From assembly GCA_947589075.1 (NCBI GenBank), contig CANQBS010000001.1, positions 62,001 through 126,000 of the forward strand: a stretch of 64,000 nucleotides of DNA. The letters run 5' to 3'. Source of the stretch: an uncultured Acetatifactor sp. Its GTDB lineage: Bacteria > Bacillota > Clostridia > Lachnospirales > Lachnospiraceae. This document shows positions 50,578 through 64,000 of the stretch, in pieces. A program made the translations under genes and the position numbers. Within the stretch, counting starts at the first letter, position 1. The number at the start of each line of letters is the position of its first letter. The notes below the pieces were generated by a model that was not told where the DNA came from, ran no database searches, and saw only the letters and a program-made list of their open reading frames with translations.

Positions 50578-51999
50578 ATGAAAATTTATAATAAAAAATA
50601 TAAATTTATAGAAACATACGGACTATTGATGCTGGATTTTTTAGGTATAACCATTGCTTATGCTTTAGCATATCTGATTCGTTTTGCAGGTCAGCAGAGT
50701 CCATTGGGGAAAGAAGGAGTGCCGCAAGTCTATATTTTTTTGCTGTTGCTTTGCCCCTTTTATAGTTTGTTGGCAGACGGATATAAATATTTTAATCAAA
50801 GAGGATACTATAAAGAACTGATAGAAGTGCTGAAATATGAGCTGACCTTATTTATAGCGGCCAGTACCTATATTTATATATTTCGTCTTGAGCAGGGTTT
50901 TTCCCGATTGATGTTAGGTTATTTTATTATAATAAACAGCTGTATTACCTATATAGGAAGGATTGCCTTTCGATATTTTTTAAACTCTTATTATAAAAGA
51001 AGCAAAAACAGCGATAAGATCATGGTCATAACGACTCAGCAGGATATCGAAATGGTAATAAATCATATCGATGAGGATAATGCCTGGAGCTATGAAATAG
51101 TGTCTGTTGCCCTTATGGATGTCTGTAGAATCGGAGAAACGATAAGGGATATTCCCATTGTGGCGGATAAAACGAATGTAATTGAGGAGGCAAGACAAGG
51201 GATTATCGATGTTGTCTTTATCTATTATCCTGACGGGGATAAACATGAATTAGAGTGGCTTGTTCAGTCCCTTTTGGCTATGGGGGTAATGTGTCATAAT
51301 TGTATAGAAAATCTGAATATCAGTACGCCATACAGCAGTATAGGGAAGTTTGCGGACTTTCCGGTGCTTACTTATACAATGGGAGTGATCGACTACAGGT
51401 GGAAGCTGGTTAAGAAGCTGATGGATCTTGCAGGCGGTATGATTGGGCTGATTTTTACGGCAGTCATTACTCCTTTTGTCGCTGTTGCAATTAAGCTGGA
51501 TTCTCCGGGACCCGTTTTCTTTCGGCAGACGAGAGTTGGGAAAAACGGCAGACGATTTCAAATTTATAAATTTCGCTCCATGTATATAGATGCCGAAAAA
51601 AGAAAAAGTGAATTAATGCAGGAAAATGAGATGCATGGACCCATCTTTAAAATCAAAGATGATCCACGGATTACGAGGGTGGGAAGATTTCTTCGTAAAA
51701 CCAGCATAGATGAGCTGCCGCAATTTTGGAATGTGGTGAAGGGGGATATGAGTCTGGTTGGAACCAGGCCGCCGACAGAAGAAGAATTCGGGCAATACAA
51801 TATTTATTACAAGAGACGTCTGAGTATAACGCCTGGTTTGACAGGAATGTGGCAGGTGTGTGGGAGAAGTGATATTACAGATTTTGATGAGATAGTGAAA
51901 TTGGATTTAAAATATATTGATGAATGGTCTATGGCACAAGATATCAAAATACTGCTGTTGACAATAGGAGCGCTCCTGTTTGGACGGGGAGCGGAATAG
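50578..51999 (+). CDS. Polyprenyl glycosylphosphotransferase, WbaP/CpsE-like (PF02397)
   Basis: KLDSPGPVFFRQTRVGKNGRRFQIYKFRSMYIDAEKRK; SIDELPQFWNVVKGDMSLVGTRPPTEEE. Confidence 0.95.
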   Translation: MKIYNKKYKFIETYGLLMLDFLGITIAYALAYLIRFAGQQSPLGKEGVPQVYIFLLLLCPFYSLLADGYKYFNQRGYYKELIEVLKYELTLFIAASTYIYIFRLEQGFSRLMLGYFIIINSCITYIGRIAFRYFLNSYYKRSKNSDKIMVITTQQDIEMVINHIDEDNAWSYEIVSVALMDVCRIGETIRDIPIVADKTNVIEEARQGIIDVVFIYYPDGDKHELEWLVQSLLAMGVMCHNCIENLNISTPYSSIGKFADFPVLTYTMGVIDYRWKLVKKLMDLAGGMIGLIFTAVITPFVAVAIKLDSPGPVFFRQTRVGKNGRRFQIYKFRSMYIDAEKRKSELMQENEMHGPIFKIKDDPRITRVGRFLRKTSIDELPQFWNVVKGDMSLVGTRPPTEEEFGQYNIYYKRRLSITPGLTGMWQVCGRSDITDFDEIVKLDLKYIDEWSMAQDIKILLLTIGALLFGRGAE

Positions 52000-52024
52000 A
52001 GTGAGTGCAGATGAGGAGAACCCC

Positions 52025-53170
52025 ATGAACATTATTTTGCTTTCCGGAGGATCTGGCAGGCGTTTGTGGCCCTTGTCCAATGATATCAGGGCAAAACAGT
52101 TTATTAAGATTTTCAAAAAAGAAGATGGTTCTTACGAATCCATGGTGCAGCGCATGTACCGTCAGATCCGCAGGCTGGATCCAGAGGCCGGTATTATTAT
52201 AGCCACCTCACAGTCCCAGGTGCCCACCATTCGAAATCAGCTTGGGGAGGATGTGGGAATTTCTGTGGAACCTTGCCGCAGGGACACATTTCCGGCAATT
52301 GCTCTGGCATCTGCTTATCTATTGGACGTGAGGGGCGCTGATCTGGAGGAATCCATGGTGGTCTGCCCGGTAGATCCCTATGTGGAGGAGGATTATTTTA
52401 AGGCGCTGAAGGCGCTGGGAGAGCTGGCAGACAAAGGGGAAGCCAATCTGGCTCTGATGGGAATAGAACCTTCTTATCCCAGTGAAAAGTATGGTTATAT
52501 CATCCCGGAATCAGCAGCTTTGGTAAGTAAAGTTTCTTTGTTTCGGGAAAAGCCGGACGAGGAGACCGCTCGTTCCTATATTGCCCGGGGCGCTTTATGG
52601 AATGGAGGGGTTTTTGCCTGTAAATTGAAATATTTGCTGGAAAAAGCTCATGAGCTTATAGATTTTACGAACTATCATGATCTGCTTGCCCGGTATAGTA
52701 CATTGACCAAGATCAGCTTTGATTATGCCGTGGCAGAAAAGGAATCGGCAATCCAGGTTATGCGTTTTGCGGGCAGGTGGGAGGATCTGGGCACCTGGAA
52801 TACTCTGACAGAGGCTATGGAAGAAAATGCCATAGGGAATGTTGTTTTAAATGAAACCTGCAGGAACGTACATGTGGTCAATGAGCTGGATATTCCCATC
52901 CTGGTCATGGGGATGCAGGATGTTGTGATCTCAGCAAGCCCTGACGGTATTCTGGTCTCAGATAAGGATCAGTCCAATTATATCAAGCCTTTTGCAGATC
53001 GTCTGGATCAGCAGGCAATGCCTGCGCAAAAGCCAATGGAAAGCTTTAAGATGTTGGATGCAGAAAAAGGAGACGGGACGGTAAAAGTAACGCTGGATCC
53101 GGGTCATGGCATGAACTGTCATGATCGTAAACATTGCGATGATATTTATAAGGTACAAGAGGAGAAGTGA
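52025..53170 (+). CDS. manC: Mannose-1-phosphate guanylyltransferase
   Basis: MNIILLSGGSGRRLWPLSNDIRAKQFIKIF; VEPCRRDTFPAIALASAYLLD; WEDLGTWNTLTEAM. Confidence 0.88.
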   Translation: MNIILLSGGSGRRLWPLSNDIRAKQFIKIFKKEDGSYESMVQRMYRQIRRLDPEAGIIIATSQSQVPTIRNQLGEDVGISVEPCRRDTFPAIALASAYLLDVRGADLEESMVVCPVDPYVEEDYFKALKALGELADKGEANLALMGIEPSYPSEKYGYIIPESAALVSKVSLFREKPDEETARSYIARGALWNGGVFACKLKYLLEKAHELIDFTNYHDLLARYSTLTKISFDYAVAEKESAIQVMRFAGRWEDLGTWNTLTEAMEENAIGNVVLNETCRNVHVVNELDIPILVMGMQDVVISASPDGILVSDKDQSNYIKPFADRLDQQAMPAQKPMESFKMLDAEKGDGTVKVTLDPGHGMNCHDRKHCDDIYKVQEEK

Positions 53171-53175
53171 CTTAT

Positions 53176-55050
53176 ATGATCAAAATGCCTTTTTCTAAGA
53201 AGGATGTAAAGTTAGCCGGTATTCCAACAAATAAGATTATTATACTTGTGTTATTAGATATAATGTCTGTTTTATTGGCTTCTTTTTTTCCATTATATCT
53301 GCGATATGAGTTTAGTTTTAATGCCATTGAAAAAAGATTTCTGCAGGCTTACGAAAATATCCTGCCTTTTACCCTGATATCGACGTTTCTTTTTTTTGTG
53401 TGTTGGAAACTTTATAAGAGTATCTGGCGTTATGCGGGTTTTACTGAATTCGTTAATATAGTGTTTGCGACTACCTGTTCGGCGGCAGCGCAGGTACTTT
53501 ATCGTTTTATTTCGAAGCAATATTTACCCAGGAGTTATTATGTCCTTTACTGGATTTTCTTGTTTGGATTTACATGCCTGATCCGGTTTAGCTATCGTAT
53601 TCTGCGCACACTGAATTCCAGACATCTGCACCATGATCTTTCCAGATTTAACGTAATGATTATTGGAGCGGGCGCTGCGGCAGATGCCATTTTAAAGGAG
53701 ATCGAATTAAGTCCGTTCATCAATTTGAAGGCTAAATGTATCATAGATGATGACGCAGGATGTCATGGAAAGCTATTGCGGGGAGTGCCTATTGTGGGCG
53801 GACGCAATAAGATTTTGGAAGCTGCGTCAGAATTTGGAATTGATGAAATTATTTTTGCAATTCCCTCGGCGGATCAACAAACCAAAAGGGAAATATTGGA
53901 TATTTGTAAGGAAACCGGCTGCAGACTGCGTACTCTGCCGGGAATGTATCAGCTGATCAACGGAGAGGTCTCTGTAGCCAGCCTGAAGGAGGTGGATATT
54001 GAAGATCTTTTAGGAAGGGAACCTGTACAGATTAATGTGGAAGAGATTTTGGATTATGTCAGGGGAAAGGTTATCTTAGTTACGGGAGGAGGAGGTTCCA
54101 TTGGCGGCGAGTTGTGCAGGCAGATCGCCGGGCATGAGCCGCGTCAGCTTGTAATTCTGGATATTTATGAGAATTCGATATATGAAGTGCAGCAGGAGCT
54201 GAAAGCAAGGTATCCTGCCCTTGATTTAGTGGTGCTGGTAGCATCTGTCAGGAATACTAAGCGCATGGATAAGATCTTTGAAAAGTATCATCCTGATATC
54301 GTATATCACGCCGCCGCCCATAAACATGTGCCTTTAATGGAGGAAAGTCCAAATGAGGCAGTGAAAAACAATGTATTAGGCACTCTTAAGATAGTTCAGG
54401 CGGCGGATTATTGGAAAGTAAAGAGGTTCGTGCTGATCTCTACTGATAAAGCGGTAAATCCTACTAATGTTATGGGGGCAACAAAGCGTATCTGTGAGAT
54501 GATCATTCAAACCTATAATAATCGGTCTCAGACAGAGTTCGTAGCTGTAAGATTTGGAAATGTGCTGGGCAGCAACGGAAGTGTGATTCCCCTTTTCAAA
54601 AAACAAATAGCGGAAGGCGGACCTGTAACGGTAACAGACCCCAATATCATCCGATATTTTATGACAATCCCGGAAGCGGTTTCCCTGGTGCTTCAGGCCG
54701 GCGCATATGCAAAGGGAGGAGAAATTTTTGTATTGGATATGGGGCAGCCCGTGAAAATATTAGACTTGGCTCAAAACCTGATAAAGTTGTCTGGTTATAG
54801 GGTTGGAGAAGATATTCAAATCCAATTTACAGGGCTTCGTCCGGGTGAGAAACTGTTTGAAGAACGGCTTATGGCAGAAGAAGGGCTTCAAAAGACCGCG
54901 AATAAGATGATCAGTATCGGCAAACCGATAAAGTTTGACGAGGAGTTGTTTTTAAAGCAGTTGAATGAATTAAAGGAATATGTGGAGCAGGAACCTGACG
55001 ACATCAGGGATTGGCTTAAAAGAATTGTGCCTACCTATATACCGACATAA
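53176..55050 (+). CDS. Membrane nucleoside-diphosphate-sugar 4,6-dehydratase, CapD/FlaA1/PglF family
   Basis: N-terminal TM region; KVILVTGGGGSIGGELCRQIAGHEPRQLVILDIYENSIYEV; HAAAHKHVPLMEESPNEAVKNNVLGT; STDKAVNPTNVMGATKRICE. Confidence 0.95.
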   Translation: MIKMPFSKKDVKLAGIPTNKIIILVLLDIMSVLLASFFPLYLRYEFSFNAIEKRFLQAYENILPFTLISTFLFFVCWKLYKSIWRYAGFTEFVNIVFATTCSAAAQVLYRFISKQYLPRSYYVLYWIFLFGFTCLIRFSYRILRTLNSRHLHHDLSRFNVMIIGAGAAADAILKEIELSPFINLKAKCIIDDDAGCHGKLLRGVPIVGGRNKILEAASEFGIDEIIFAIPSADQQTKREILDICKETGCRLRTLPGMYQLINGEVSVASLKEVDIEDLLGREPVQINVEEILDYVRGKVILVTGGGGSIGGELCRQIAGHEPRQLVILDIYENSIYEVQQELKARYPALDLVVLVASVRNTKRMDKIFEKYHPDIVYHAAAHKHVPLMEESPNEAVKNNVLGTLKIVQAADYWKVKRFVLISTDKAVNPTNVMGATKRICEMIIQTYNNRSQTEFVAVRFGNVLGSNGSVIPLFKKQIAEGGPVTVTDPNIIRYFMTIPEAVSLVLQAGAYAKGGEIFVLDMGQPVKILDLAQNLIKLSGYRVGEDIQIQFTGLRPGEKLFEERLMAEEGLQKTANKMISIGKPIKFDEELFLKQLNELKEYVEQEPDDIRDWLKRIVPTYIPT

Positions 55051-55129
55051 ATCTTTATATGATTGTTCGCTATATCAAAATACTGTTAAGGATCACTGGC
55101 ACTTTCATGTTGCGGCGGAGAGCAGAATA

Positions 55130-56308
55130 ATGAAACGAGGGAAAGATAATATAGCAGGAAAACTCAGGATTGCTCATTTCGGACAGAAAAACTGCATGAC
55201 ATCAGAAGGGGGCATTGAAGTTGTAGTGGCACAACTTGCTGTTCGGCAAGCAGCTTTAGGTCATGATGTGACTTGCTATAACCGTAGCGGACATCATGTC
55301 AGCGGGGCAGAATATGATGTGCCCAAGGTGAAGGAGTGGAAGGGCATACATATGAAATATGTTCCCACCATTCAAAAACGGGGCATGGCGGCCTTTTCTT
55401 CTGCTTTTTTTGCTGCTGTCAGCTGCGCGGTTCGGAAGTACGACGTAGTACATGTACATGCTGAAGGACCGGCTTGTTTTCTGCCAATATTGACAGCAGC
55501 TAAATTTTTCCATAAAAATCTGAAAATCTGTTTTACATGTCATGGCCTGGATTGGAAACGCAGTAAATGGGCTGACGGCATTGGCTCTAAAGTTATAAAA
55601 TATGGTGAAAAAATGGCTGTAAGATTTGCTGATGAGATAATAGTGCTCAATAAAAGTACACAAGAATATTTTAAGAATACCTACAACCGTAAAACCACAT
55701 TGATACCTAATGGCGTTAATTCCCCGAAGATAATGAATGCAAATTTGATCTTTCAGGAGTGGGGATTAAAGAAAGACAGCTATATTTTATATCTTTCGCG
55801 AATTACACCGGAGAAAGGAGTGTATCACTTAATAAAAGCTTATAAAACGTTAAATACTGATTTAAGGCTTGTGATAGCGGGAGGTGGAAGCGATACGCGG
55901 AAATATGAGGAAGAAATACATGAACTTGCCGTTGGGGATGACAGGATCATTTTTACGGGATTTGTCCGGGGACAGCGTCTTGCAGAGCTTTACAGCAATG
56001 CTTATATATATGTTCTGCCGAGTACGTTGGAGGGAATGCCGCTTAGTCTTTTAGAAGCCATGAGTTACGGCAACTGCTGTCTGGTAAGCGATATCCCTGA
56101 GTGCGCTGATGTGGTGGGGCAAAATGCTATGCTGTTTCGGACAGGCGATGTGGACGATCTGGCGGACAAACTGCAGTTTTTATGTGAAAATGAGGCTTTG
56201 GTAGAGCAATATAGAGATAGGGTAGGAAAATATATTGAAAGAAAATATAACTGGGAAGAAATTGTTACAAAGACAGTGAGTTTGTATTACAAGGGATTAG
56301 ATTCGTGA
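55130..56308 (+). CDS. Glycosyltransferase family 4
   Basis: IAHFGQKNCMTSEGGIEVVVAQLA; YLSRITPEKGVYHLIKAYK; YVLPSTLEGMPLSLLEAMSYGNCCLVSDIPE. Confidence 0.94.
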   Translation: MKRGKDNIAGKLRIAHFGQKNCMTSEGGIEVVVAQLAVRQAALGHDVTCYNRSGHHVSGAEYDVPKVKEWKGIHMKYVPTIQKRGMAAFSSAFFAAVSCAVRKYDVVHVHAEGPACFLPILTAAKFFHKNLKICFTCHGLDWKRSKWADGIGSKVIKYGEKMAVRFADEIIVLNKSTQEYFKNTYNRKTTLIPNGVNSPKIMNANLIFQEWGLKKDSYILYLSRITPEKGVYHLIKAYKTLNTDLRLVIAGGGSDTRKYEEEIHELAVGDDRIIFTGFVRGQRLAELYSNAYIYVLPSTLEGMPLSLLEAMSYGNCCLVSDIPECADVVGQNAMLFRTGDVDDLADKLQFLCENEALVEQYRDRVGKYIERKYNWEEIVTKTVSLYYKGLDS

Positions 56309-56436: not shown

Positions 56437-58158
56437 ATGATGCAGCGAATTGGTAATAAATCGGTCAGGCCATGGTTTTGGATGATTTTTTTAGCGATAA
56501 CAGTAATCTTATTCTGGAAATGCAGATATGGGTATGCAAATTTGGATGAAGCCTTTTATCTGACGGTACCTTATCGCCTTCTCCAGGGAGACAGGATCCT
56601 TTATGAAGAATGGCATTATTCACAATTATCTGCGGTACTGCTTATCCCCCTTTTAAGCTTTTATATTAAAATTATAGGGGGGACTGGCGGGATATATTTA
56701 TTCATACGCTGCGTGTATACGATCTGCAAATGTCTCATATCTGCTTTTATGTTCTTTAAATTGAAGAAATATGATGAAACAGCTGCCATGGCAGCTACGT
56801 TATTGTTTCTGGCTTTCTCAGCACATGGTCTGATGGTGTTGTCATATAATTCCCTGGCAATTGGCGGTTGCGTGTGCGCTATTTTATTTATGTTAACAGA
56901 CATACATCGACGTTACAGTTTGTTTTTTTACATTTTAGGAGGAATATCGCTGTCGGTAGCAGTACTGGCAATACCGCATACGGCTTTGTTGTTTGTTGTT
57001 TATCTGATCGCCGTGGCTGTATTGAGGACACGTAAACAGGCAGTGAAGAACCAGGCAATAAGAAGTATGTTTTCCTGGAAGGCTTGTAAGGGGATGTGTA
57101 CGGGAATTGCCATATCTGTGGCGGCTTTTGCCTTTTATGTATTCAGCAGAACTTCCTTTTCGGAGATTATGCAGACACTGCCCCATATTCTTCAAGATCC
57201 CGAGCATCCGGCCAGAGTCTGGTGGAAATTGATTCCCGGCTATTTTGCCAGAGTTACAACAGGAGATGACAGAGATTATGTGACGCTGGGGATTTACGTG
57301 GTATTAATGATAGAGTTTCTTTGCATGCTGCTTGATAAAAGAAGGAAGCAGCATGAGGAACTTTGGGGTATATTGACAGCGTGTACGGTGATCATTCTGT
57401 TGGGAGCCTATTTAATAACGAACTGTTATATAAGCCATCTCATGTTTATTCCAAATGTATTGGCATTTTTTATAATTGTTTTATTGAGAGAAGAGATACC
57501 ATTGGAACTGTTCTTCTGCATATGGTTTCCGGGGATGTTGTTCTCATTCCTGGAATATGTCGCATCTAATACGGGGTTTTCCGGGATATCGGCGGCCTCC
57601 TCAGTTGCAACGATTGGGAGCGTTATGATCATAATGATTGCTGCAAAGAGGTTTTTCCAAAGAAAAAGCTGGTGCGCAGTTTTCCTGAGCGCCCTGGTGG
57701 TTTTGACGATTTGCGCCGTCCTTTTCCTGAGAATAAATTACATTTTCTGGGAAGATGGGATTGATGAGCAGACGGAGCTTCTGACGGAGGGTCCTCAGGC
57801 AGGTCTTCTTGTCAGTGAAGAAAAAAGTGAAAAGTATTATGGAATATTGGCTGATACAGCGGAGCTGCGACAGAAGGAAAAAGATTTTCGGGTGTTGTAT
57901 CTGGGGGATAAATCCTTATATTTAGCAGGACCACAGGAATGCGCATCATATTCGCCGTTGTCAGCGGGGATATCTTCCAGCAGAGAAATGCTGTATCAAT
58001 ATTGGGAAGAACATCCGGATAAAGAGGCGCAAGCAGTTTACGTGGAATATAGTTATGATTATGAGATAATACGGGAATTAAGTACCAAATATAATATGAG
58101 TGTTGAGAAAAAAAGCAAGGGATATTTACTTCTGAAACAGGATGAGGAAAATGAGTGA
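56437..58158 (+). CDS. Polytopic GT-C/PMT-like glycosyltransferase family protein
   Basis: YANLDEAFYLTVPYRLLQGDRILYEEWHYSQLSAVLLIPLLSFYIK (GT39-like start), about ten TM segments. Confidence 0.75.
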   Translation: MMQRIGNKSVRPWFWMIFLAITVILFWKCRYGYANLDEAFYLTVPYRLLQGDRILYEEWHYSQLSAVLLIPLLSFYIKIIGGTGGIYLFIRCVYTICKCLISAFMFFKLKKYDETAAMAATLLFLAFSAHGLMVLSYNSLAIGGCVCAILFMLTDIHRRYSLFFYILGGISLSVAVLAIPHTALLFVVYLIAVAVLRTRKQAVKNQAIRSMFSWKACKGMCTGIAISVAAFAFYVFSRTSFSEIMQTLPHILQDPEHPARVWWKLIPGYFARVTTGDDRDYVTLGIYVVLMIEFLCMLLDKRRKQHEELWGILTACTVIILLGAYLITNCYISHLMFIPNVLAFFIIVLLREEIPLELFFCIWFPGMLFSFLEYVASNTGFSGISAASSVATIGSVMIIMIAAKRFFQRKSWCAVFLSALVVLTICAVLFLRINYIFWEDGIDEQTELLTEGPQAGLLVSEEKSEKYYGILADTAELRQKEKDFRVLYLGDKSLYLAGPQECASYSPLSAGISSSREMLYQYWEEHPDKEAQAVYVEYSYDYEIIRELSTKYNMSVEKKSKGYLLLKQDEENE

Positions 58159-58858
58159 TATATTATATATAGTGATGCCAGCGTATAATGAGGAAGAAAA
58201 TATTGGTACTGTTATCGGACAGTGGTACCCGATTTTAAAGGATAAAAGTATAGAATCAAGGATAGTTGTAGCGGATAGCGGAAGCACGGACAAAACTCAT
58301 GAGATTTTGTTGAGACTGCAGAAATCCTGTCCTCAGCTGGAGGTTATTTCGGATACAGGAAAATACCATGGCCCTAAAGTTATTGCATTATATGATTATG
58401 CTATAAAACATAATGCGGATTACATTTTTCAAACAGATTCCGACGGACAAACAGATCCGGATGAATTCTATGGTTTTTGGACTGATAGAGAGCAATATGC
58501 TGGTATATTTGGAAAACGCAGGAAACGCGCGGATGGAAAAATAAGAGAATTTGTAGAGCAGGTGGTCTGTATCATGCTGCGGATGTATTTTGGCGTGAAA
58601 ATTCCAGACGCTAATGCTCCGTTCAGACTCATGAAAACTGATATTTTAAAAAAATACCTTTATAGGTTATCAGAAGATTATAGTTTGCCTAATATTATGA
58701 TAACAACTTTTTTCGTATATAACAATGAAGCAATTGCGTTTAGAGATATATCATTTAGTGCGAGAAATGGGGGGGGGAGTTCTATAAACATGGTTAAAAT
58801 TATAAAAATGGGATTTGCTTCACTAATTGATTTTCGAAAAATGAAAAAAGAAATGTGA
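58142..58858 (+). CDS. Glycosyltransferase family 2 (DPM1-like), contains G9 tract
   Basis: YIVMPAYNEEENIGTVIGQWYP; VVADSGSTDKTHE; YIFQTDSDGQTDPDEF. Confidence 0.93.
   Translation: MRKMSDILYIVMPAYNEEENIGTVIGQWYPILKDKSIESRIVVADSGSTDKTHEILLRLQKSCPQLEVISDTGKYHGPKVIALYDYAIKHNADYIFQTDSDGQTDPDEFYGFWTDREQYAGIFGKRRKRADGKIREFVEQVVCIMLRMYFGVKIPDANAPFRLMKTDILKKYLYRLSEDYSLPNIMITTFFVYNNEAIAFRDISFSARNGGGSSINMVKIIKMGFASLIDFRKMKKEM
58769..58777 (+). repeat. Homopolymeric G9 tract within the GT2 gene
   Basis: gaaatGGGGGGGGGagttct. Confidence 0.95.
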
Positions 58859-58869
58859 CAGGTGAAAAA

Positions 58870-59979
58870 ATGGCAAAGATGAAAGTGCGTAATTCAATAT
58901 TTGAATTCCTTAGATTGCTTGCAATGTTTATGGTAGTATTGGAGCATTGCCTGAACGCAAGCGTGCCGAGCACATGTGAGCCATTGACGGTTTTGGATAA
59001 CATAAAATGGTTCTTAGAGGCATTTACTATATGCGCGGTAAATTGTTTTTTCCTGCTTACCGGATATTATTTGAAGGCTGGAAGATTCCGCCTGAGCCGC
59101 CTTGTCGGGATATGGGGAAAAACAGTTTTCTATTCTGAGGTAATATATTTGTTTGCTGTAGCACTTGGGGTGGACAAATTTAGTATGGGAAATCTGCTTT
59201 TTTATTTGTGCCCGGTTTTGACAAAAAGATACTGGTTTATGCAGACATACATCGTGTTATCATTGCTTGCTCCTTTTATTGTTATCTTGTTAGACAGGCT
59301 TTCAGAATATCAGCATCTGATATTAATAAGCATATTGTTGCTCTTTTTCTCATTGCATCAGACGTTTATTCCTGTGGCTCGTACTTTGGATACGACGCAG
59401 GGGTATGGAATAATGTGGGGGGGGATACTTGTAATTGTAGGAAACTTCCTGCAGAAATATGGTGAAAAGTATTTGAATAAGGTTAAGGGCGCATATTTAT
59501 TGTTGGGATATGCAGTAGTAGCCGTAGGTATCTTTATTACAAATTGTATAATCGTAAAGTATGATATTGCTCAGGGTGTTACCAGTAGAGGGAATTTTTA
59601 TGCATATAATTCTGTCAGTGTATTTTTAGAAGGAATGTGTCTTTTCCTGTTTTTCATGAAAACAAGTAAAAGAAAAAACACTTTTTCCAATTCAGTTATA
59701 AACTGGCTGGCATCTTCAGCATTGTCGGTGTATCTGATTTCAGCTCATCCAGAATTTTTATTTCCTCTATGGACCAGAATCCTGAAATTAGATAAATTGA
59801 TCTACAGTCCGGCTATATATGTGTTGGCGGCTATTAGTTTATCAATTATAGTAATGTTGATTTGTATCCTGATAGATAAATTCATCAATTTAATATGCAG
59901 GAAAGCGCATTTTGATACGATCTTGCGCAGATTGGATGAAACGAGATTGAATAAGCTTATGAACATAGAATGTAATTAA
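58870..59979 (+). CDS. Acyltransferase family 3 membrane protein, contains G8 tract
   Basis: RNSIFEFLRLLAMFMVVLEHCLN; ten or so TM segments; typical Acyl_transf_3 layout. Confidence 0.88.
   Translation: MAKMKVRNSIFEFLRLLAMFMVVLEHCLNASVPSTCEPLTVLDNIKWFLEAFTICAVNCFFLLTGYYLKAGRFRLSRLVGIWGKTVFYSEVIYLFAVALGVDKFSMGNLLFYLCPVLTKRYWFMQTYIVLSLLAPFIVILLDRLSEYQHLILISILLLFFSLHQTFIPVARTLDTTQGYGIMWGGILVIVGNFLQKYGEKYLNKVKGAYLLLGYAVVAVGIFITNCIIVKYDIAQGVTSRGNFYAYNSVSVFLEGMCLFLFFMKTSKRKNTFSNSVINWLASSALSVYLISAHPEFLFPLWTRILKLDKLIYSPAIYVLAAISLSIIVMLICILIDKFINLICRKAHFDTILRRLDETRLNKLMNIECN
59417..59424 (+). repeat. Homopolymeric G8 tract within the acyltransferase gene
   Basis: taatgtGGGGGGGGatactt. Confidence 0.95.
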
Positions 59980-60003: not shown

Positions 60004-60777
60004 ATGAAGGTTGTTATTTTGGCAGGTGGATATGGAACACGTATTTCAGAAGAATCATTATATAAACCGAAGCCTATGATTGAGATAGGGGAGATGCCTA
60101 TTTTATGGCATATTATGAAAACCTATTCTTATTATGGATTTAATGATTTTATTATTTGTGCGGGTTATAAACAACAAGTAATTAAAGAATGGTTTGCCAG
60201 TTATTTCCTTTATACATCTGATATTACTTTTGATTTTAAAAATGACAATAAAGTGATTGTGCATGATAAACATGTTGAAAAGTGGACGGTAACAGTGGTT
60301 GATACAGGATTAGATACACAAACGGGAGGCAGAATTAAGAGGATTAGAGAATATGTAGGAAACGAATCGTTTATGTGCACGTATGGAGATGCGGTCAGTG
60401 ATATTAACATTGGTAAACTGTTGGAATTTCATAATGCACATGGCAAAATAGCTACGATGTCAACTTATAATTTTGGGCAGAATAAGGGTGTTGTTGAAAT
60501 TGAAAAAGACGGACGAATAAGTGCCTTTAGAGAAAAGTCGGATTTGGATGGTGATCTGATAAACATGGGTTTTATGGTATTTAAGCCAGAGTTATTTAAT
60601 TATATAGATGGGGATGAGACGGCTCTTGAAAAAGAACCAATGCGCAAATTGGTTAATGATAAGCAATTATTAGGGTATGTTCATAAAGGTTTTTGGCAGT
60701 GTATGGATACTTTGCGGGAAAAGCAGAAACTTGATCAAATGTGGAATGAAGGCAAAGCATTGTGGAAAGTATGGTGA
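60004..60777 (+). CDS. rfbF: Glucose-1-phosphate cytidylyltransferase
   Basis: MKVVILAGGYGTRISEESLYKPKPMIEIGEMPILWHIMKTYSYYGFNDFIICAGYKQ. Confidence 0.96.
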   Translation: MKVVILAGGYGTRISEESLYKPKPMIEIGEMPILWHIMKTYSYYGFNDFIICAGYKQQVIKEWFASYFLYTSDITFDFKNDNKVIVHDKHVEKWTVTVVDTGLDTQTGGRIKRIREYVGNESFMCTYGDAVSDINIGKLLEFHNAHGKIATMSTYNFGQNKGVVEIEKDGRISAFREKSDLDGDLINMGFMVFKPELFNYIDGDETALEKEPMRKLVNDKQLLGYVHKGFWQCMDTLREKQKLDQMWNEGKALWKVW

Positions 60778-60821: not shown

Positions 60822-62165
60822 ATGGAGAAAAATTGGGCAACAGAAGCTGAAGCAAGGGAAAAAATTAAAGAACTTGTGGTAAAGTATTATCATGATTTCA
60901 AAGAAAAGCATATTCCTTTTGTCCCGGGAGATCGTATTGCCTATGCAGCGCGCGTCTATGATGAAGAAGAAATGTTGAGTTTAACGGATGCTATGCTGGA
61001 TTTTTGGCTGACTACAGGTAGATTTGCAGAGCAATTTGAAAAAGAATTTGCAAAATGGATTGGTGTCAAATATGCGCATCTTGTAAATAGTGGCTCGTCA
61101 GCTAATTTGATTGCGTTTGCTGTACTTACGGCACCGGAGTTAGGGGAGAGACAGATTAAAAGGGGCGATGAGGTAATAACAGTTGCCTGTGGATTCCCCA
61201 CAACGGTTGCTCCTATTCTTCAATATGGGGCTGTACCTGTGTTCGTAGATGTTACAGTTCCGCAATATAACATTGATATTACGAAGCTTGAGGATGCAAT
61301 CTCTGATAAGACCAAGGCAGTGATGATTGCTCATACGCTTGGAAATCCATTTGATCTTAAACATGTTAAAGAATTTTGCACAAGGCACGGATTGTGGCTC
61401 ATTGAAGATAATTGTGATGCTCTTGGAAGCCAATATACGATTAATGGAGTGACAAAATATACTGGAACCTGGGGAGATATAGCAACCAGCAGCTTTTATC
61501 CCCCACATCATATTACGATGGGAGAGGGAGGATGCGTTTATACGGATGATTCGCAACTACATCGCCTTATCTTATCATATCGTGATTGGGGAAGAGACTG
61601 CGTATGCCCACCAGGTTTTGACAATTTTTGTGGGCATCGCTATGATACAAGTTTTGCAAATCTTCCTGCTGGTTATGATCATAAGTATGTGTATAGCCAT
61701 TTCGGGTATAATCTCAAGGTGACTGATTTACAGGCATCCATAGGTTGTGAACAACTAAAGAAGCTGCCTGAATTCATTGAAAGGCGAAAGAATAATTGGA
61801 AAAAATTGCATGACAACTTAAGTGGTTTCGCTGGTAAAGTGATACTTCCAGAAGCTGCTGAGAATAGTGTACCATCCTGGTTTGGTTTTCTGATTTCCGT
61901 TAGACCTGAATCAGGGCTTCAACGAAATGAAATTACGAAATATCTTGAAAGACATAATATTCAGACCAGACTTCTTTTTAGCGGAAATTTAATAAAACAT
62001 CCATGTTTCGATCAAATTAGAGAAACAGATGCGTATCGTATAGTGGGGAAGTTAGCAAATACTGATTTCATTATGAATAATTCATTTTGGGTAGGTGTGT
62101 ATCCGGGTATGTCTGGTGAGATGATAGATTACATGTCGGAGGTCATTGCGGGAGCAATTTGTTAG
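60822..62165 (+). CDS. rfbH: RfbH-type CDP-6-deoxy-4-hexulose 3-dehydrase (E1)
   Basis: HLVNSGSSANLIAFAVLTAPELGERQIKRGDEVITVACGFPTTVAPILQYGAVPVFVDV; LIEDNCDALGSQY; SSFYPPHHITMGEGGCVYTD (His replaces the usual PLP Lys). Confidence 0.96.
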   Translation: MEKNWATEAEAREKIKELVVKYYHDFKEKHIPFVPGDRIAYAARVYDEEEMLSLTDAMLDFWLTTGRFAEQFEKEFAKWIGVKYAHLVNSGSSANLIAFAVLTAPELGERQIKRGDEVITVACGFPTTVAPILQYGAVPVFVDVTVPQYNIDITKLEDAISDKTKAVMIAHTLGNPFDLKHVKEFCTRHGLWLIEDNCDALGSQYTINGVTKYTGTWGDIATSSFYPPHHITMGEGGCVYTDDSQLHRLILSYRDWGRDCVCPPGFDNFCGHRYDTSFANLPAGYDHKYVYSHFGYNLKVTDLQASIGCEQLKKLPEFIERRKNNWKKLHDNLSGFAGKVILPEAAENSVPSWFGFLISVRPESGLQRNEITKYLERHNIQTRLLFSGNLIKHPCFDQIRETDAYRIVGKLANTDFIMNNSFWVGVYPGMSGEMIDYMSEVIAGAIC

Positions 62166-62182
62166 AAAATTTAGGAGGTGAA

Positions 62183-63100
62183 ATGAAAAAAGTAATTGTA
62201 ACCGGTGCAAATGGTTTTATTGGAAGTGCACTTTGCAGAGGATTATCTGCCAAGGGAATAGAGGTAATTGCAGTAGTACATAATTATCAAAATGATATGT
62301 TTGTTTCGGATAAAAATATACGGACAATTTGGTGTGATCTATCACAATTTTCGAAGCTGCCAGAATTGATAAACGATAATAATATAGATGCGTTATATCA
62401 TTTAGCTTGGGCAGGAAGTGCTGGAGAAATGCGAGGAAATAGCGATATCCAATTAAGCAATGTAAAATATACCTGTGATACAATAAAAGCTTGTGATACA
62501 ATTGGGTGTAAAAGATTCATATTTGCATCCAGTATTATGGAGTATGAAGTTGCGGCACTGATGGAGACGGACGCGGTGCCAAGTATAAACACGTTATATT
62601 CAAGCGCTAAGATAGCAGCGGATTATATGGGAAGGGCAATAGCTGGAAAACTAAAAATTGATTATATAAGAGCCCTGATTTCTAATATATATGGTCCAGG
62701 AGAAAAAAATCAGAGACTTATTAATACAAGCCTGCAAAAATTAATGCGGGGGGAGCATTGTTCCTTTTCTGCCGGAGAACAGATGTATGATTTCATATAT
62801 ATAGAAGATGCGACAAAAGCGCTTATTGCTGCAGGAGATTTGGGGTTATCTAATAAAACGTATTATATTGGCAGTCTACAGCCGAGACCATTGAAAGAAT
62901 TTCTTTATGAGCTTCGCGACCAGGTGGATCCTAAAATAGAGATTGGGTTAGGAGAGATACCTTATGAAGGGGTATCTTTGTCATATAAAGAATTTGATAT
63001 TAATGCTTTAAAGAAGGATACAGGATTTATCCCCTCAATTTCTTTCGCGGAAGGAATCCAAAATACCATTCTATGGATGCGAGGTGAACATTTTGCATAA
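62183..63100 (+). CDS. NAD-dependent epimerase/reductase (SDR), possible CDP-dideoxyhexose 4-reductase
   Basis: KKVIVTGANGFIGSALCRGL; FIFASSIMEYE; LYSSAKIAADYMGRAIA; AGGAGGTG upstream of ATG 62183. Confidence 0.88.
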   Translation: MKKVIVTGANGFIGSALCRGLSAKGIEVIAVVHNYQNDMFVSDKNIRTIWCDLSQFSKLPELINDNNIDALYHLAWAGSAGEMRGNSDIQLSNVKYTCDTIKACDTIGCKRFIFASSIMEYEVAALMETDAVPSINTLYSSAKIAADYMGRAIAGKLKIDYIRALISNIYGPGEKNQRLINTSLQKLMRGEHCSFSAGEQMYDFIYIEDATKALIAAGDLGLSNKTYYIGSLQPRPLKEFLYELRDQVDPKIEIGLGEIPYEGVSLSYKEFDINALKKDTGFIPSISFAEGIQNTILWMRGEHFA

Positions 63101-63653
63101 ATTTGAGTTTAGAGAATTAGATTTAAAAGATGCGTTTTATATTGATAATTTTTTTATGGATGATGAAAGGGGATCGTTTACAAAATGTTTTGAAAAAGAA
63201 ATATATGAACAAAGGGGAATTCAATTTCAACTTAGTGAATCTTTCTATTCCGTTTCTGCTAAAAACGTGATGAGGGGGCTTCATTTTCAAATCCATAATC
63301 CGCAGGCTAAGTTAGTTTGTGTGTTAAATGGAAAAGTATGGGATGTAATCGTTGATTTAAGGATGGGAAGCAATACTTATAAACAGTGGTTTGGAATTGA
63401 ACTCAGCAGAGAAGAGCATAATGCTTTATATATCCCTAAGGGTTTTGCACATGGATTTGTAGCATTAGAAGATAAAACGATTATGCTTTATCAATGTGAT
63501 GGGGTTTATGACAAGGAGACTGATACGGGAATTCGATTTGATGATCCTGAAATTGGCATCGCTTGGCCCATTGATTTGAAGTGTGCGATACATTCGGAAA
63601 GAGATATGAAATTAATGAATCTTAGAGAATATGAGCGGAGGATGGGATCATAA
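63084..63653 (+). CDS. dTDP-4-dehydrorhamnose 3,5-epimerase-like (RfbC/AscE-type) protein
   Basis: DERGSFTKCFEKEIYEQRGIQFQLSESFYSVSAKNVMRGLHFQIHNPQAKLVCVLNGKVWDVIVDLR; YIPKGFAHGFVALED. Confidence 0.92.
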   Translation: MNILHKFEFRELDLKDAFYIDNFFMDDERGSFTKCFEKEIYEQRGIQFQLSESFYSVSAKNVMRGLHFQIHNPQAKLVCVLNGKVWDVIVDLRMGSNTYKQWFGIELSREEHNALYIPKGFAHGFVALEDKTIMLYQCDGVYDKETDTGIRFDDPEIGIAWPIDLKCAIHSERDMKLMNLREYERRMGS

Positions 63654-64000
63654 TGACAGTCCCTGTTTTGAGCTTTTGTATAACAGCGTATAATAGAAGA
63701 GAACTCGTTCTTGAATTGGTTAATAACCTACTGAGAATAAAAAGGGACGATATTGAAATTGTAGTGAGCATACAGCCTTGTAATGATGGTACTTATGAAG
63801 CTTTATCTGATATAGCAGATGCTCGTCTTAAACTAAAAGAAAATGATGAAATAATTGCAGTGCATCAAAATTGGCTGCAGTCTCTTAATATGGGTACGGG
63901 ACGGTGGCTCTTGGAGGTGAACGATTATGATTGGATTAATATTGAAGAGGTGGATAATCTGATTGATATTTTAGTGAAAAATGATGAATGGGGGGGGTAT
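63653..64000 (+). CDS. Glycosyltransferase family 2, 3' truncated by window end; absent from the ORF track
   Basis: Manual translation MTVPVLSFCITAYNRRELVLELVNNLLRIKRDDIEIVVSIQPCNDGTYEALSDIADARLKLKENDEIIAVHQNWLQSLNMGTGRWLLEVNDYDWIN, open to the window end; ATG overlaps the upstream TAA. Confidence 0.85.
   Translation, partial: MTVPVLSFCITAYNRRELVLELVNNLLRIKRDDIEIVVSIQPCNDGTYEALSDIADARLKLKENDEIIAVHQNWLQSLNMGTGRWLLEVNDYDWINIEEVDNLIDILVKNDEWGGY
63990..63997 (+). repeat. Homopolymeric G8 tract within the last GT2 gene
   Basis: gatgaatGGGGGGGGtat (first G at 63990). Confidence 0.93.

Follow-up and report, generated by a model that had tools for sequence, protein, structure and literature searches.

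The window analysed here is a 64,000-nucleotide stretch (C1:62001-126000) of a 3.15-Mb draft genome, G000, assembled in 163 contigs. It carries three long G tracts, and the genes around them form a surface-polysaccharide cluster according to Pfam profile matches. All genes given here with window coordinates run on the forward strand. The upstream part of the cluster (50578..56308) encodes an initiating sugar transferase (PF02397), an NTP transferase (PF00483), a Polysacc_synt_2 dehydratase (PF02719) and a GT1 glycosyltransferase (PF00534). A GT2 glycosyltransferase gene (58142..58858, 238 aa, PF00535), resembling the polyprenyl-phosphate sugar transferases ArnC, GtrB and DPMS, is followed by an acyltransferase-3 (O-acetyltransferase-like) gene (58855..59979, 374 aa, Acyl_transf_3, PF01757). 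A second GT2 gene starts at 63653 and continues past the window end at 64000 to C1:126663 (336 aa at full length, PF00535, on L009:7653-8660). Between these tract genes lie a nucleotidyltransferase (NTP_transferase, 60004..60777, PF00483) and a DegT/DnrJ/EryC1 aminotransferase-fold gene (60822..62165, PF01041), both without a long tract, an NAD-dependent epimerase gene holding one G6 (62159..63100, PF01370) and a dTDP-sugar 3,5-epimerase (RmlC-like) gene (63084..63653, PF00908). The cluster also has GT-D and glycerophosphotransferase-like genes. A search of plasmids for near matches to the window locus found none.

The initial annotation had reported a G9 at 58769-58777 and two G8 tracts at 59417-59424 and 63990-63997, all within surface-polysaccharide genes, with no other G or C run longer than six in the window. 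The tracts are present exactly as reported and in frame, a recount of the remaining runs agrees, and by Pfam the host genes are the GT2, the acyltransferase-3 and the second GT2. In each case the G's are on the coding strand, inside the open reading frame. The G9 reads AAT GGG GGG GGG AGT and forms codons 210-212 of the first GT2 (...SARNGGGSSIN...), while the G8 tracts lie near codon 188 of the acyltransferase and codon 113 of the second GT2. Reading the other two frames shows that a frame-shifting length change at any of the three tracts would lead to a stop within 2 to 29 residues: 2 or 5 residues past the G9, 2 or 12 past the G8 of the acyltransferase, and 29 or 4 past that of the second GT2. 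A one-base change in the G9 would thus replace the last 26 residues of the first GT2 by 2 or 5 unrelated ones.

The consequences for the first GT2 can be judged from its predicted structure. Both sequence (phmmer against GtrB, 4.7e-10) and fold (best Foldseek matches of the model to ArnC, 7.8e-14, and to GtrB) support the relation of its GT-A catalytic domain to ArnC, GtrB and DPMS. The transmembrane helices that follow the catalytic domain in GtrB and ArnC are absent: the 238-aa protein has a single C-terminal helix and then stops. We therefore classify it only as a GT2 with an ArnC/GtrB-type fold. Its closest named relatives are from Lachnospiraceae, Blautia and other Clostridia; together with the size of the family, for which about 300 genera are sampled, this suggests that G000 belongs to the Lachnospiraceae. 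In the AlphaFold model (pLDDT 89), the tract maps to the loop that follows the last strand (198-205) and precedes the C-terminal helix (217-237); it encodes the glycine loop (R-x-x-G-x-S/N) that links this helix to the catalytic domain. Homologs have P-R-Q-G-G-x-N-S-I-N at this site, and the window protein A-R-N-G-G-G-S-S-I-N; the tract codes for both glycines and for the variable position, and Ser stands in place of an almost invariant Asn. Three residues encoded 3' of the tract, I220, G224 and F231, are invariant in 29 aligned sequences. Since the helix and these conserved residues would be lost, a frameshift at the G9 would probably inactivate the enzyme. The earlier estimate that only about the last 30 residues would be altered is right in number (3 tract residues plus 26), but the word "only" understates the effect, as this stretch takes in the entire C-terminal helix as well as conserved positions.

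None of 78 aligned homologs has a run of more than six G's at the tract site, so the GT2 tract appears to be recent and lineage-specific. This speaks against slippage to the extent that no tract is conserved at the site. Synonymous non-G codons at the tract in relatives that show no phenotype diversity had been named beforehand as evidence against switching, and half of this is what was found, since the 78 aligned GT2 homologs carry non-G codons at the site. A DNA search of 101 congeners for the pair of GT2 and acyltransferase genes gave weak homologs only, and those that have the GT2 site lack the tract.

G9 runs are too frequent in the family, where a genome commonly has one or two, for a single G9 to be more than weak evidence of a contingency locus. 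At least one occurs in 181 of 298 family genomes and in 274 of 399 genomes of the phylum, and we dropped the G9 as a rarity in itself. This commonness counts against slippage and would fit chance or neutral codon use, by which three Gly codons in a Gly-rich motif happen to be GGG and the other tracts are compositional coincidence. The Gly-Gly pair at this site in GT2 homologs would seed a short G run, and GGG is not rare among the Gly codons of the stretch. The distribution of run lengths in the genome is harder to reconcile with such an origin. G000 contains 423 G/C runs of length 6, 10 of length 7, 8 of length 8, 6 of length 9, none of length 10 and one of length 11, i.e., a cliff after G6 with a flat tail above it, including 15 runs of at least G8. 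Runs in ordinary sequence thus seldom go beyond G6, above which the long tracts form a small class of their own. The A/T runs of the window show no comparable cliff.

Homopolymer enrichment against codon-preserving shuffles, a check proposed in the initial annotation, was determined with 400 rounds of synonymous codon shuffling within each gene of C1:62001-137960. The 17 cluster genes (58.1 kb to the contig end) contain four runs of at least G8 where 0.35 would be expected (P about 0.0025). Long runs are avoided in the remainder of the region, whose genes have none of at least G7 against 3.2 expected. Furthermore, the 15 tracts of G000 are clustered: ten pairs are separated by less than 12 kb, against an expectation of 0.79, and none of 20,000 random draws reached ten. 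With the tracts both clustered and, as described below, coinciding with frame breaks, we consider chance a very unlikely explanation. As a separate observation, the roughly 40-fold drop in G/C runs from length 6 (423) to length 7 (10) is steeper than expected from codon shuffling, suggesting that ordinary genes are under selection against longer G runs.

By a strict count, nine of the 15 tracts are in or between recognisable polysaccharide genes: the two GT2 genes, the acyltransferase-3 gene, genes for an Asn-synthase-like protein, a GNAT protein, a CTP-transferase/kinase fusion, an MBOAT and a TylF protein, and an intergenic gap on contig C18. A tenth could be counted with the GT-C-like membrane protein on C103, whose relatives have weak matches to PMT_2 and TIGR03766. 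Two further tracts are in polytopic membrane proteins, one of the LIC_10190 family and one without a match, and the remaining ones are in an MBL-fold protein, in the start region of an ABC ATPase and upstream of a surface-repeat protein. That some tracts are outside polysaccharide genes (C75, C72 and C9) counts against the contingency reading. For the tract genes on C7 and C27 no supporting glycan family match was found. Of 20 G6-bearing control genes in G000, at most four belong to comparable families, as against 9 of 15 (P 0.03). The enrichment in polysaccharide genes is moderate; clustering and frame breaks are the stronger evidence.

The positions of three tracts are of note. The G8 at C1:130119-130126 (L009:12119-12126), outside the window, is at the extreme 3' end of the Asn-synthase-like gene, and in an alternative frame the reading frame would extend as far as an ATGA at which it overlaps the gene that follows, which makes a control of translational coupling possible. 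The G8 at C72:4167-4174 (L026) is in the Shine-Dalgarno region directly upstream of the start of the ABC-transporter ATPase, where length changes could tune translation. The G9 at C18:27482-27490 (L011) is in the gap between the end of a capsule gene of tyrosine-kinase-like type, whose tail has YYGK repeats, and the next cluster gene.

Two genes of G000 are broken exactly at their tracts. On C103, the gene for the GT-C-like membrane protein (C103:7871) is interrupted at a G9, giving ORFs of 164 and 374 aa. In at least 13 congeners both parts align to one continuous frame, the open frames being 507 to 586 residues long; the congeners inspected at the tract position have ordinary codons there. 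On C8, in the gene at C8:47083, a G9 ends a 298-aa ORF that comprises the CTP transferase and the start of the kinase, and the remainder of the kinase is in the next frame. A congener protein of 278 aa in one frame (L271) matches on both sides of the break, with E 1.6e-4 to the first ORF at its end and E 2.6e-7 to the second. A search of relatives for the full IspD-kinase fusion found the kinase part only, yet in one frame across the break. The genes on C103 and C8 are thus putative OFF states of G000 that are backed by homology. Seven other tract genes, the three of the window among them, are intact and in frame. The GNAT (G11) and LIC_10190-like (G8) genes have an altered look past the tract, and no homolog confirmed a break in these two.

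Frame breaks of this kind could also result from mutational decay, in which slippage-prone tracts give rise to ordinary pseudogenes in dispensable, rapidly replaced glycan genes, with no adaptive reversibility. Glycan clusters turn over fast, and the lineage-specific GT2 tract would agree with such decay. On the other hand, the split genes that were examined stay open on both sides of the break in the alternative frame and retain conserved protein sequence, which fits either a switch or a break that happened very recently. Within the same genome, several tract genes are intact. We regard decay as unlikely.

Related genomes provide further cases. We collected 91 tracts of at least G9 from ten congeners and called their frames by codon statistics, which are rough and noisy; by this measure 15 are in frame and 11 out of frame, the others being terminal, upstream or non-coding, and three tracts are on the antisense strand. 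Only frame breaks with homology or Pfam support were taken as proof. In G100, an FrhB gene is interrupted at a G10 that separates its N-terminal Pfam domain from the C-terminal one. An ortholog pair with 69% identity has opposite frame status by one G: the G10 gene of G006, a single-contig genome, is in frame, while in G093 the frame closes soon past a G11 and the homologous C-terminus runs on in another frame. In L060, a locus of the related Clostridia genome G876, two GT2-GtrA genes of one cluster are split, one at a G10 and one at a G9; the GT2 profile match breaks off at position 76 or 77 of 168, and the next frame holds the GtrA domain. A homolog of the window GT2 in the same cluster (63% identical) has a frameshift at the equivalent Gly-Gly codons, where six G's are present. 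G876 has 35 runs of at least G8, many of them grouped. For tract genes outside the window, ON and OFF states are seen among homologs, between species only; the 78 aligned homologs of the first window GT2 are without a tract.

The same genomes gave several observations on individual tracts. Of the 35 runs in G876, 30 read G on the contig forward strand and 5 on the reverse strand, a marked strand bias. In G095, a G12 (L147, C4:123801) is near the 3' end of a gene for a 579-aa N6/N4 DNA methylase, which is possibly phase-variable. Two G9 tracts of G094 (L190, L195) are at the ends of paralogous sugar-transferase genes. A contig of G092 opens with a 46-base homopolymer (C222:1-46, G on the reverse strand) that looks like a sequencing artefact.

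G000 and most of its relatives are draft assemblies in which the consensus tract length may be wrong, and out-of-frame genes might then be miscounted homopolymers. Illumina problems in G tracts are documented (PMC9187656), the genome is fragmented into many contigs, and some of the OFF calls could come from miscounting a tract whose true length does not vary. However, a miscount can neither create long tracts nor place them in polysaccharide genes, and the pattern is repeated in independent assemblies, including the three frameshifted genes of the single L060 cluster. Error as the cause is very improbable. Programmed slippage on the G tract at the level of the RNA or the ribosome, yielding both products from a fixed DNA length, would go with genes of the same appearance, two ORFs that meet at the tract. 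It is, however, poorly compatible with orthologs that differ in length (G10 and G11) and with the many tracts that are in frame, where recoding would be pointless. We consider it extremely unlikely as the overall explanation, though individual genes may be recoded in this way.

The description of the G9 as a candidate slipped-strand contingency locus is favoured by tract length, location on the coding strand, clustering in polysaccharide genes, the excess over shuffled sequence, the split tract genes and the G10/G11 pair. It is likely, in our assessment, that the window G9 and its sister tracts are poly-G contingency loci that vary the capsule among cells. During replication, a run would gain or lose one G and thereby take its gene out of frame (OFF) or back into frame (ON), so that capsule structure would differ between cells within one population; the present G9 of the window GT2 would represent the ON state. 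Against this stands that all three window tracts are in frame, and that the variation consists of differences between species and of broken genes at other loci. The genes broken exactly at G runs in G000 and its relatives nevertheless indicate that surface sugars are probably switched by G-run slippage. High-frequency reversible slippage, loss of enzyme activity, an altered capsule and an adaptive benefit are inferred.

A broader proposal, to which we give an even chance, is that multi-locus poly-G phasomes exist in many Lachnospiraceae and generate diversity in the capsule and in other surface structures. Each lineage would have gained its tracts independently and at different sites, some of them at 3' ends, in ribosome-binding sites and in DNA-methylase genes. 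A dominant family of gut commensals would then use a contingency strategy regarded as a mark of pathogens. A search of open-licence literature found no earlier report of poly-G phase variation in Lachnospiraceae. If the tracts switch, a population of these bacteria would be a mixture of capsule types, which bears on phage susceptibility, on immune recognition of commensals and on the reading of genomic "pseudogenes".

Poly-G switching of surface sugars is known mainly from pathogens such as Campylobacter. The type of mechanism, poly-G slipped-strand contingency, is already known, and the system of G000 is probably a new instance of it. Criteria used for Campylobacter are G runs of at least 7 in open reading frames (the PhasomeIt cut-off) with G on the coding strand (PMC6321876), and the tract lengths and strand of G000 match them: the G9, G8 and G8 of the window, like all 15 runs of at least G8 in the genome, exceed 7. 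The capsule and LOS phasome of Campylobacter jejuni, with cgtB as an example, shares tracts in ORFs of glycosyltransferases and modification enzymes, coding-strand G, several loci per genome and truncation by frameshift (PMC6321876; PMC6437147). It differs in that Campylobacter belongs to another phylum, the tract at the window site is not conserved across species, and switching in G000 is proposed from sequence. In the gut commensal Bifidobacterium breve, G-tract slippage controls sortase pili through bbr_0113 and bbr_1889 (PMC9187656). This bacterium is likewise a Gram-positive gut commensal in which a G tract divides a surface gene into two ORFs and expression depends on the tract length (PMC9187656), but it is an actinobacterium with two loci, in pilus genes, for which slippage was measured, whereas G000 has 15 tracts, read from DNA, and polysaccharide enzymes as targets. 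The invertible promoters of gut Bacteroidales and C. difficile also produce heritable heterogeneity of surface structures; they do so by recombinase-mediated DNA inversion, in contrast to the frameshift by slippage proposed for G000.
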